Assembly (NCBI RefSeq): GCF_000518705.1
Contig: NZ_JAEC01000004.1
Span: forward strand, 94,285 to 158,284
Direction of reading: 5' to 3'
Origin: Shewanella colwelliana ATCC 39565
GTDB taxonomy: Bacteria > Pseudomonadota > Gammaproteobacteria > Enterobacterales > Shewanellaceae
DNA length: 64,000 nucleotides
The notes beneath the pieces are model-generated. The model ran no database searches. It saw only the letters and a program-made list of their open reading frames with translations, and was not told the origin of the DNA. The translations under genes and the position numbers were made by a program. Of the stretch, positions 43,913-48,495 are shown in pieces; the stretch's first letter is position 1; the number at the start of each line of letters is the position of its first letter.

Positions 43913-44851
43913 CTACACCACTTGACGTAATCTATCTTGTACAACACCTACCAGTAGATCGGGTTGAAACTTAGAAATAAATTTATCGCAGCCAACCTTT
44001 TCTACCATGGCGTTATTAAAACTGCCGCTTAAGGATGTATTGAGAGTGATATAAAGTTTGTTCATGCGTTTGTCTTTGCGGATCTCATGAGTCAGACGAT
44101 AACCATCCATCTCTGGCATCTCTGCATCAGTTATCAACATCAAAATCTCATTGTAAACATCTTTACCTTCATCACACCACTTCTGCAGTACCTGTAATGC
44201 TTGCAAACCATCAGACGTCTCAATCACTTCAATCCCTAACGGCTCAAGCGTTTCCTTCACTTGTCGTCTAGCAGTAGAAGAGTCATCGGCAATGAGGATT
44301 TTACGGCCGTACATGTTCGCCGCGAGCTCCTGGTCTAAAACGCCCTCAGAGAGTGAAATATCGTAATGGATAATTTCAGCAAGGACTTTTTCAACATCAA
44401 TAATAGACACCAGCTGTGTGACGCCCTCTACTTCAACTTTGGTGATGGCGGTAAGATAGTTATGGGCACCGGTACTTTTTGGGGGTGGCATAATATCACC
44501 CCAAGTCATATTGATAATATGCTCGACTCGCCCGACCATAAACCCCTGAATGCTTCGGTTATACTCAGTAATGATCAAATTTGCATCGCCATCATCAACC
44601 CTAGGTTGAAAACCGATGGCCGCTCTTAAATCAATCACAGGTATTGAGGTTCCACGAATATTGGCGACTCCCTTTATGCTACTGTGGCTGCCAGGTAAAG
44701 CGCTGAGTGGCGGAAGTTTAACAACCTCTTTAACCTTAAAAACATTTATGGCAAACAATTGTGTCGCATTAATGCGAAACAATAATAGTTCCAAACGATT
44801 TTCGCCGACAAGTTGTGTCCTTTGATCAACCGTTTCTAACACTCTGGCCAT
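43913..44851 (-). CDS. cheV: Chemotaxis protein CheV (CheW-REC)
   Basis: The 312-residue protein has a CheW domain (about 15-165) with NIRGTSIPVIDLR and a receiver domain (about 180-312) with the phospho-acceptor aspartate in LMLITDAEMPEMDG. CheV couples receptors to CheA and tunes adaptation. The start at 44851 is preferred over 44863 because MARVLETVDQRTQL matches family starts. It is monocistronic here; no chemotaxis operon is adjacent. A 13-bp-loop inverted repeat lies upstream at 44884-44910. Confidence 0.93.
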   Translation of the reverse strand: MARVLETVDQRTQLVGENRLELLLFRINATQLFAINVFKVKEVVKLPPLSALPGSHSSIKGVANIRGTSIPVIDLRAAIGFQPRVDDGDANLIITEYNRSIQGFMVGRVEHIINMTWGDIMPPPKSTGAHNYLTAITKVEVEGVTQLVSIIDVEKVLAEIIHYDISLSEGVLDQELAANMYGRKILIADDSSTARRQVKETLEPLGIEVIETSDGLQALQVLQKWCDEGKDVYNEILMLITDAEMPEMDGYRLTHEIRKDKRMNKLYITLNTSLSGSFNNAMVEKVGCDKFISKFQPDLLVGVVQDRLRQVV

Positions 44852-44960
44852 AACACTTCTCACTAAATTTTTAGGGTATTTGGGGGCTATAACTTTAACA
44901 AGTATAGCCCTTTATTGACGCTATTTATCACTGTTCAATCACAGTCGACGAATCTCTTTA

Positions 44961-46583
44961 TTACTGACTAGTATTTAATGCTACAGGTGCCACAGGTATG
45001 ATTCTGGATCCATGTTTGATCACGATATCCATAATACCGAGATGAAGCTCTTCTGAAGCAACTTGGTAAGTAGGCAAACTCTTAGTACCAACATAAGCAA
45101 AAATATTAACCTGCAACCCATGCAGACCAAAGCCCTTAAATGTCACTCTTAATGGCGAATCCATCACTAACTCATGCGCCTCGAGCATCTCTTTAATGTC
45201 TTTGATAATCGCCTTCAATTGTTCGGTATTGGTCATCAAATAGTCTAATCGGATATCTGCTTTAAAACGAATTTTCTCCCGCTCAGAAATATTCTCAATT
45301 TCCATCTCGACCAACTTTGCATTAGGTACATGGATAAGTGTCCTGTCTAGCGTTCTTATCTGTGTGCAACGCAGACCAATCTCTTCAACAGTGCCTTTAA
45401 TTGAACCAAATTTACAGACATTACCCACCTTAATTGGCGCGGCGGAGTATAAGGTAATCGTGCCAATGAAATTCTCAATTGACTGCTTAGAAGCAAGCGC
45501 AATTGCAATGCCACCAATCCCCATCCCAGCGATGATTGCACTGGCGTTAAAACCAAGGTGCTCAAGCCACACCAGCACTGCAAGCACAACAAAAATTACT
45601 CGTAAAAAATTGGTTAGCGGTCTTAAAAGTGATGCCCCCTGCTTTTGTCCTTTGTCGAGCATACGTTGCTTAAGACCAGCTTGGATTATCCCCACTCCTG
45701 ACCAGACTAACCAAATAATTGAGATGAGCGTTAAAATGCCAGTATCAATCGCTTCGAGCGCGGCAGTAGATATGGTGCCATGGCTTAGCCAGGTTCTAAC
45801 AGCCATCACAGCAAGGAAGAAGCGCAGTGGACCAGCAACAATGTAGGCGAGTTCAGTTTTTAAATGATACTCTGTACGGAGTATCAGTATCTTAAACAAC
45901 CATGTAATTGGGATGATGATACAAAATGCTACCACTAAGTAGGTCACGATTAATGCCCACTCCCATATATTGACCTTAAAAACTCGGCCTTCTGGTAGGT
46001 GTGCAATATACCACTCAGTTAATGGCCCGTAGCCCAAATTGCCATATAACTGAGGCACTTTAGCCACCGTTGCATTGGAAATTTTCCAAATCGATCCATT
46101 CGCGCCTGGCACACGTTGTAAATAAAGAGCTATTTCACTACTTTGTAGTTTGACCCGACCAAATAGATCTCGATAACTCGGTAATTGGTCTCCTGTGACG
46201 CCTTGTGGAGTATCACTAATAAGCTCCAAATCAATCCACATGTTCCGGTCAATAATCGCCTGCAGTTTTTGTGCATATTCAGGACCTTTGTCAGCAGACA
46301 AACCGTCTGGCAAGTACCTCAAATCGAGATATTTGGCCGCCGTTTCAAAATCTTGTTCATAGGTCGCTTGAGTGAAACCTTCTAGGGCACCGCGAGGCGT
46401 GTCGCGGCGGAGTGCGTCTTTATAATTATACTTGTGTGGCTCAACGTCTAAAAACTCTTGTTCTGTGGTGTCCGTCGATGCCTTTTGCAAAGCTTGTACA
46501 ACACTTGTTGGTTCAGCAGCATTAGCTACCAAAGCAAAAGCTGATAGGAATAAAACCCACCCAAAAAAAAATTTGTTATGCAT
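44961..46583 (-). CDS. MscS-family mechanosensitive channel
   Basis: The 540-residue protein has a signal peptide (about 1-22, cleavage after ANA), a periplasmic domain of about 185 residues, then about four to five transmembrane segments (from residue 205). The pore-lining helix and beta domain of MscS follow (GMGIGGIAIALASKQSIENF, then GTVEEIGLRCTQIRTLD). It would open under membrane tension and release solutes. The large N-terminal domain places it with the longer MscS-like paralogues. No regulator is adjacent. Confidence 0.92.
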   Translation of the reverse strand: MHNKFFFGWVLFLSAFALVANAAEPTSVVQALQKASTDTTEQEFLDVEPHKYNYKDALRRDTPRGALEGFTQATYEQDFETAAKYLDLRYLPDGLSADKGPEYAQKLQAIIDRNMWIDLELISDTPQGVTGDQLPSYRDLFGRVKLQSSEIALYLQRVPGANGSIWKISNATVAKVPQLYGNLGYGPLTEWYIAHLPEGRVFKVNIWEWALIVTYLVVAFCIIIPITWLFKILILRTEYHLKTELAYIVAGPLRFFLAVMAVRTWLSHGTISTAALEAIDTGILTLISIIWLVWSGVGIIQAGLKQRMLDKGQKQGASLLRPLTNFLRVIFVVLAVLVWLEHLGFNASAIIAGMGIGGIAIALASKQSIENFIGTITLYSAAPIKVGNVCKFGSIKGTVEEIGLRCTQIRTLDRTLIHVPNAKLVEMEIENISEREKIRFKADIRLDYLMTNTEQLKAIIKDIKEMLEAHELVMDSPLRVTFKGFGLHGLQVNIFAYVGTKSLPTYQVASEELHLGIMDIVIKHGSRIIPVAPVALNTSQ

Positions 46584-47039
46584 CCTAGCCTCAAAAAATT
46601 AACAAAAGCCTATGAATTCTAGCATTTATTACAGATAACAAAAGATACTAAACAACGCATTTGCGCAAAAACACTAACCTTATAAGTCTCCCATCAAAAC
46701 TATTTGACAAGCGAATGCTTGTCGGTATACTGGCTGGAAGTTTGAGACTCCCTGTCCTGTATTCTTGTTTCGCTAGACCATTGTCATCGCATCCAACTAA
46801 TCCAGCAGTCCCCTTAATACGTCATATCATTGTCATAAAACCATGATTTACTGTGTACATCCCAGTATCTCGGTGGCTAGACAAAGAGCAAAGCCAGTCA
46901 CCATTGAAATGCTGATGATTAGTTTAAGGGAAATGGGTTATCTCAAATGTTTTTAACTCATCTTTTGCATAAGCTAAGGATATTTTATTATTAAATTTAA
47001 ACTGTTAAGCAAACAGTCAACACTATAGGAGTATGACCT
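46584..47039. other. Intergenic region with a palindromic promoter and possible mini-ORF
   Basis: No conventional gene fills these 456 bp. It contains the plus-strand promoter with embedded palindrome at 46704-46731, a 37-codon ORF at 46843-46956 without a ribosome-binding site, and the leader of the 57-residue gene at 47040, including the inverted repeat ACTGTT-N5-AACAGT (47001-47017). A longer frame at 46661-46846 runs across the promoter and is not credible. Confidence 0.6.
46704..46731 (+). promoter_or_regulatory. Sigma70-like promoter with a perfect palindrome in the spacer
   Basis: A perfect -35 (TTGACA, 46704-46709), a 16-bp spacer and a near-perfect -10 (TATACT, 46726-46731) point rightwards. 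A perfect inverted repeat, GACAAGC-GAAT-GCTTGTC (46706-46723), overlaps the -35 box and fills most of the spacer. That is the geometry of an operator for a dimeric repressor or a spacer-distorting activator. The expected start site is near 46738. It would drive the intergenic transcript leading towards 47040. The regulator is unknown. Confidence 0.6.
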
Positions 47040-47213
47040 ATGTCGTACAAAATGAATGGACATGAGATCACGGTTAATTTTCCCGTTGCCTCTATTTCCT
47101 TGAACAAATCTTCTATCGCTTTCACCGATAGTTTAGGTAAAAACAAGCAAACATTTTCTAAGCGTGTCGAAGCACTTCAATTTATGAAATGGTTGCTGTC
47201 TAGCAATAAATAA
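47040..47213 (+). CDS. 57-residue hypothetical protein
   Basis: An ATG at 47040 with AGGAG eight bases upstream opens a 57-codon frame ending at TAA 47211-47213. The product starts MSYKMNGHEITVNFP, contains the segment SKRVEALQFMKWLL, and ends in SSNK. It is basic and soluble, with a likely beta N-terminal half and a C-terminal helix. I do not recognise a family. An inverted repeat (47001-47017) lies just upstream of the ribosome-binding site. The strong ribosome-binding site and protein-like composition make it a credible small gene. Confidence 0.6.
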   Translation: MSYKMNGHEITVNFPVASISLNKSSIAFTDSLGKNKQTFSKRVEALQFMKWLLSSNK

Positions 47214-47360
47214 CTAACCACCGCTATTCGATACACCTCCTCTCACCGTATCGAAGGTTGCTGTTGCAACAAGTAGGATTGACATCATCTGTCAACGACT
47301 CAGCAAATCACTTGTCTCAGGTTGTATCACTTTCACAGATACTAACCTGAGCCGGGTAGA

Positions 47361-48293
47361 TTAATCAGCTTTACCACTCAATGGATACTTTCTCTGATAC
47401 CTTGGCAACATCGACTCATTGCCCAGTAAGCCTCCCTGATGCAAATATACAATAGTTTCATGACTATTCTCGGCCATGTAATGGGTTAAATTAAGCCAGC
47501 CTAGTGGATCATAAAGCAACTCAAAAGTAATTCCCGTTTTATTCACTTTGTTCCAAATATCATAAAACTCTCGATAGAGCTTGCCAAAATGATAACGTTT
47601 TGCCAATGCGACCACATGTGGGTGATGGGATAGATTTGCTGACAGTTGGGTAAACTGAGCATTCAAATAAGTACAATCTCCAACAACAGCGCAGGTGACA
47701 ACTTTGATACTGGAGGCAAGTTCGTAAAAGCTCTTTTGCAAAAATAACGCTGTAGTACCAGTGCCAGAAGGAAGGAAAACGGTAAGTTCTGCCAAATTTT
47801 GTTGTTTTTTCCACTCGTTCAATTCCATCGCTAACCGCCGAACGCCAAACTCAGCATAAGCACATCGACCACCTTCAGGCACAAATAGAGTATTTTGCTG
47901 ATTGGGCAGGATCTCCTGCTCTATGTAATCTAATGCAGCACGCCCTTGCCGATCACTGCATAAGCTTAAATCGATAATATTGGCGCCATTATTAAGCGCA
48001 CCCAAATAATTGCCACTTGGATTATCACGTAGGTGACTGGCAATGTGATCGACATAAAAGTCCAAACGCCAACCCTTTAGTTGCGCTAACGCTGACATTG
48101 AATAGAGCGAATTAGCCTGAGGAGAGCCGTAGCCAATCAGCCGGCATATGCCGTCAAACTCATGCTGCAAAAAATGGGCAAATTTGCGCGCTTTATTACC
48201 AGAAAAATAGGGGTGCAACAGATCGTCGCGTTTAACGAAAACTCGATATCCGTCAACGTTGATGCTATGGATAGGGGTATTAGCTAACTTCAT
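47361..48293 (-). CDS. PLP-dependent ACC deaminase/D-cysteine desulfhydrase family enzyme
   Basis: The 310-residue protein belongs to the tryptophan-synthase-beta-like PLP fold. The family lysine is K34 in YFSGNKARKF, and glycine-rich phosphate-binding residues appear in LPSGTGTTALF. Relatives deaminate 1-aminocyclopropane-1-carboxylate or desulfhydrate D-cysteine; the two cannot be separated by eye, and a D-cysteine role is more usual outside plant-associated bacteria. The start at 48293 matches the fold's N-terminus; the frame opens 26 codons upstream at 48371. It appears monocistronic. Confidence 0.82.
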   Translation of the reverse strand: MKLANTPIHSINVDGYRVFVKRDDLLHPYFSGNKARKFAHFLQHEFDGICRLIGYGSPQANSLYSMSALAQLKGWRLDFYVDHIASHLRDNPSGNYLGALNNGANIIDLSLCSDRQGRAALDYIEQEILPNQQNTLFVPEGGRCAYAEFGVRRLAMELNEWKKQQNLAELTVFLPSGTGTTALFLQKSFYELASSIKVVTCAVVGDCTYLNAQFTQLSANLSHHPHVVALAKRYHFGKLYREFYDIWNKVNKTGITFELLYDPLGWLNLTHYMAENSHETIVYLHQGGLLGNESMLPRYQRKYPLSGKAD

Positions 48294-48495
48294 TATCTTG
48301 AGCGTCTTTAGATGAGACGGCCATTTTACCCTGTATATGGATCGATGAGCAATCTGACTAACTTTAGGCATAATATGTCACACCTTAACAATAGCTCATC
48401 CGTAAAAAGCAATTATAACAACAATAATCAGCAACTTAACAGTTGGCACGCTATCTGCTTATCACTTAAGTAGATAAGGGAAATAGGAAATTGAT

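Follow-up and report, generated by a model that had tools for sequence, protein, structure and literature searches.

Genetic context of the promoter

A sigma-70-type promoter, P1, lies at 46704–46731 on the plus strand of the window, by which we mean the whole 64-kb stretch of DNA that was analysed. To its left, on the minus strand, is the gene of an MscS-type channel of 540 residues (44961–46583), and to its right, on the plus strand, is the gene of a 57-residue protein (47040–47213), followed on the minus strand by a gene (47361–48371) whose product resembles PLP enzymes by weak matches below the cut-off. A Pfam scan of the ten neighbouring proteins encoded between 42795 and 51430 left three with no match, the 57-residue protein among them. 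A perfect inverted repeat overlaps P1, and the DNA between P1 and the 57-residue protein gene carries Pho-box-like direct repeats, a second candidate promoter (P2) and two possible hairpins (H1 and H2).

P1 is conserved upstream of the 57-residue protein gene

An earlier note on this DNA had described a near-consensus promoter here, and that description is borne out at exactly the coordinates given above: TTGACA (46704–46709) and TATACT (46726–46731) match the consensus at 11 of 12 positions and are separated by 16 bp, within the 16–18 bp required for sigma-70. RNA polymerase would recognize these hexamers and, judging from the position of the -10 element, start near 46738, which would give the 57-residue protein gene, if it is transcribed from P1, a 5' leader from 46738 to 47039 on the plus strand.

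The 57-residue protein is found in 128 of the 129 genomes of the genus, this one included, with genome G131 lacking a match. The DNA upstream of its gene in all 128 genomes formed our set of leaders; one of them, cut upstream by a contig end, was dropped from the counts of P1, the Pho-box-like repeats and P2, leaving 127, and a leader from a genome labelled as another family was also left out. Requiring at least five of six matches in each hexamer, a 16-bp spacer and a location between -470 and -290, we found a P1-like pair in 66 of the 127 leaders (own included), compared with a mean of 1.5 and a maximum of 4 in 40 dinucleotide shuffles, although the relatedness of the genomes means that these counts cannot be treated as independent. 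The pair lies 334–433 bp upstream of the ATG in these 66 leaders, and the conserved promoters comprise 58 distinct 28-mers. When a spacer of 16 or 17 bp was allowed in a slightly narrower zone, P1 was present in 74 of 128 leaders and absent from 54. In genome G011, P1 is kept though the left neighbour is a CheW/response-regulator-like gene in place of the MscS-type gene (matched by eye to the CheW/response-regulator gene at 43913–44863 of the window), which indicates that P1 goes with the 57-residue protein gene. Because its position before this same gene is conserved, in about half of the genus, we judge P1 from these sequence comparisons to be a real, conserved and ordinary promoter.

The conserved position also bears on the product of P1, for which the earlier note had offered a small RNA, a mini-protein or the leader of the 57-residue gene. 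The leader is the most likely of these, and a leader of about 300 nt would be transcribed through into the gene; the terminator scan found no terminator-like site on the plus strand between 46731 and 47040. The distance of about 300 nt from P1 to the gene, together with the conserved blocks that directly follow the -10 element in related species, could suit an independent small RNA or mini-protein, but an RNA of this kind should end at its own terminator, and none is seen before 47040. Moreover, Rfam matched nothing in the P1 region, either in the whole window at the gathering score, where only three tRNAs were found elsewhere, or in 46580–47300 at E values up to 5. The folding energy of the leader is ordinary (z = -0.66), and gaps in the aligned leaders have lengths not divisible by three. 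We consider a separate product very unlikely on these grounds.

The inverted repeat is probably a coincidence

The inverted repeat, GACAAGC-GAAT-GCTTGTC (46706–46723), consists of two perfect 7-bp arms around a 4-base loop. It had been placed in the spacer of the promoter; the perfect symmetry holds, but the repeat is not confined to the space between the hexamers, as it takes in four bases at the 3' end of the -35 element (GACA) together with 14 of the 16 spacer bases. A second copy, with up to 3 mismatches, was not found in the window.

How improbable such a repeat is depends on where one looks for it. With the P1 hexamers fixed and the spacer randomized, an arm of at least 7 bp around a loop of 3–8 bases arises with p = 0.0037, which agrees in part with the earlier claim that it is unlikely by chance. 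Across the window, however, there are 24 perfect 7-bp inverted repeats with loops of 3–8 bases, including 7 whose loop has four bases, which is about the chance level: 4.3 are expected per loop size, or about 26 over the six sizes and about 19 with nested repeats counted once. The repeat in P1 was picked post hoc, after 64 kb had been read. Parts of it also occur in other P1 promoters, since AG follows the -35 element in 27 of the 66 and GTCG precedes the -10 element in 9 of the 66; both are ordinary context of this promoter family and are probably symmetrical here by accident.

The symmetry is not shared by the orthologous promoters. Among the 58 distinct promoters, all seven arm positions are paired only in this genome, and the next four have five paired positions. 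The mean number of paired positions is 2.28, as compared with 2.40 when half-sites were swapped between species, and 918 of 1000 swaps scored at least as high. Searched as TTGACAAGC-N4-GCTTGTC, TTGACA with the palindrome occurs exactly in 1 of the 129 genomes, this one, and within one mismatch in 18 of the 129; comparison of coordinates by eye across the 129 genomes placed no other such site inside the leader of the 57-residue protein gene. Within this genome we located 25 near-copies with 1–2 mismatches, of which 21 fall within open frames 90 codons or longer (stop-to-stop frames, which are not proof of genes). None of the 25 has a good promoter beside it: the best promoter-like pair nearby matches at 9 of 12 positions, so that no near-copy stands by a pair of 10 or more. 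Matches with up to 3 mismatches are in modest excess (215 versus 152 for the reversed control). A collection-wide scan returned at least 118 stretches scattered over unrelated bacteria and archaea, and is uninformative because a search for 16 fixed bases over both strands of 257 billion bases should by itself yield about 120.

These comparisons bear directly on the proposal in the earlier note that the repeat is a tightly controlled operator. Autoregulated promoters of the TetR family are of sigma-70 type with an operator over the spacer, and P1 resembles them in its near-consensus hexamers and in the inverted repeat over its spacer. Unlike in promoters of this type, the repeat in P1 is not conserved and has no further sites by promoters, and the ten neighbouring proteins scanned include no DNA-binding Pfam family, with three lacking any match, although regulators need not be linked to their targets. 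We rejected an operator over P1 on the non-conservation of the repeat, the half-site swapping and the near-copies. The value of p = 0.0037 would still allow an operator that arose recently, in this species or in the strains closest to it, where a dimeric repressor, TetR-like or similar, bound over the -35 element and the spacer would block RNA polymerase at P1. The perfect symmetry, its placement over these two elements and the excess of loose matches in the genome are in line with such a site, but its absence from all the other distinct promoters and the failure of any of the 25 near-copies to provide a further good site beside a promoter argue against it, and we regard it as distinctly unlikely.

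In another reading the repeat would act as RNA of the opposite strand, weakly terminating antisense transcripts, and the scan does list a terminator-like site on the minus strand at 46723–46706, followed by AAATAGTTTT. However, the scan found 4 terminator-like sites where 2.6 are expected in shuffles, the T-run is poor, and the repeat is not conserved, which makes this explanation extremely improbable.

Chance is most likely the origin of the inverted repeat, as far as can be judged from the sequence comparisons. P1 is thus probably the distal sigma-70 promoter of the gene at 47040, carrying a coincidental repeat that is confined to this genome and for which no dedicated repressor would be needed. 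This case illustrates how the usual surroundings of promoter hexamers can line up by chance into an eye-catching palindrome within a strong promoter, and how comparing the members of a genus can reveal this.

Conserved elements in the leader

Control of the 57-residue protein gene, if there is any, would more likely reside in the DNA downstream of P1, namely in TGTCAT-type direct repeats, in P2 and in a hairpin near the ribosome-binding site. Conserved blocks are apparent in an alignment of 18 leaders, hand-chosen from the 128. One of the conserved elements is a pair of 11-bp direct repeats (CGTCATATCAT TGTCATAAAAC) with a third block common to many leaders (CATGATTTACT here), together spanning 46820–46852 on the plus strand. 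Of 127 leaders, 114 contain the pattern TGTCAT-N5-TGTCAT with 10 or more of its 12 positions matched, compared with 3.05 in shuffles, and in the window it matches at 11 of 12 positions at 46820. Similar TGTCAT-type repeats lie elsewhere in this genome (locus L326), upstream of a PstS-like gene. The binding site of PhoB, the Pho box, is described as a 22-bp element made of two 11-bp direct repeats (PMC3978041). The repeats at 46820 are like it in having two TGTCAT-type units with an 11-bp period in most leaders of the genus, but differ in that no clear -10 element follows them at the usual distance and in that the third conserved block does not resemble TGTCAT. We accordingly call them Pho-box-like only, which is a description of their sequence.

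The second candidate promoter, P2, is located at 46915–46943 on the plus strand and reads ATGATT-17-TTATCT here, while the form seen in relatives is TTGATT-17-TAGTCT. This form is present with at least 9 of 12 matches in 66 of 127 leaders (7.3 in shuffles) and with at least 10 in 46 of 127 (0.65 in shuffles), this form having been derived from the very leaders in which it was then counted, and the shuffles preserving base content only. P2 scores 9 in the window and is absent from the list produced by the sigma-70 scan. Genes with two promoters and a long leader are a general type, which the arrangement here resembles in having a distal P1, a proximal P2 candidate and a possible hairpin near the ribosome-binding site; it differs in that the region has no Rfam family and in that P2 is weak in this species.

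Two possible hairpins lie closer to the gene, both on the plus strand. H1 (ATCTTTTGC-ATAA-GCTAAGGAT, 46960–46981) falls in a conserved sequence block; it was recognized in the alignment and in a single fold, and its pattern is present in 75 of the 128 leaders. H2 (ACTGTT-AAGCA-AACAGT, 47001–47017) is located just 5' of the ribosome-binding site, and its arms differ between species and still pair, changing together to ACTGC/GCAGT, TCACC/GGTGA, TCGCC/GGCGA and others. Because H2 shifts in register between species, we scored it sequence by sequence, with two scores whose shuffles both preserve base content only. The longest perfect arm, which was the first score tried, is barely higher than in shuffles (5.58 versus 5.06), whereas the mean number of hydrogen bonds is 13.8 versus 9.9 in shuffles and reaches at least 13 in 48 of the 53 representative leaders scored, which were taken from clusters. 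An alifold consensus from the raw alignment of 54 leaders contained no pair, which counts against both hairpins, and the folding energies of single sequences are ordinary (z of -0.66 and -1.13). Because of the empty consensus, the longest-arm score close to that of shuffles and these ordinary energies, RNA structure in the leader of the 57-residue protein gene is only suggestive.

Taken as a whole, the leader might be an undescribed control region in which P1, the Pho-box-like repeats, P2 and the covarying hairpin at the ribosome-binding site together set the dose of the 57-residue protein, perhaps in response to phosphate, and in which P1 of this species may have an extra operator. We put this forward tentatively, as a rather unlikely reading. 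Among the Shewanella papers listed for transcription starts, small proteins or Pho terms, the titles and abstract openings contain nothing on this locus.

The 57-residue protein

The protein encoded behind this leader matches no Pfam or NCBIfam family at E ≤ 0.001, no PDB sequence at E ≤ 1 and no PHROG at E ≤ 1. Its Pfam match to phage Soc is weak (E = 0.01) and falls below the cut-off. A model built from the single sequence consists of strands and a C-terminal helix with a mean pLDDT of 79.8, and a fold search of the PDB with this model gave no match at E ≤ 0.001. In a sample of 295 genomes from the whole order, 44 have a match to the protein, 21 of them from this genus; of the 23 matches outside the genus, one is 81% identical and the others are 31–45% identical. 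The leader elements and this uncharacterised protein are of more interest than the palindrome, and this gene, which is nearly universal in the genus, has a conserved leader of several elements and encodes a small protein that fits no family by the customary cut-offs, is a reasonable subject for further work.

The leader left out of the counts above (L342, from genome G057, labelled as another family) precedes the gene of an 81% identical protein and contains a P1-like pair with 10 of 12 matches, which is perhaps a matter of transfer or of labelling.
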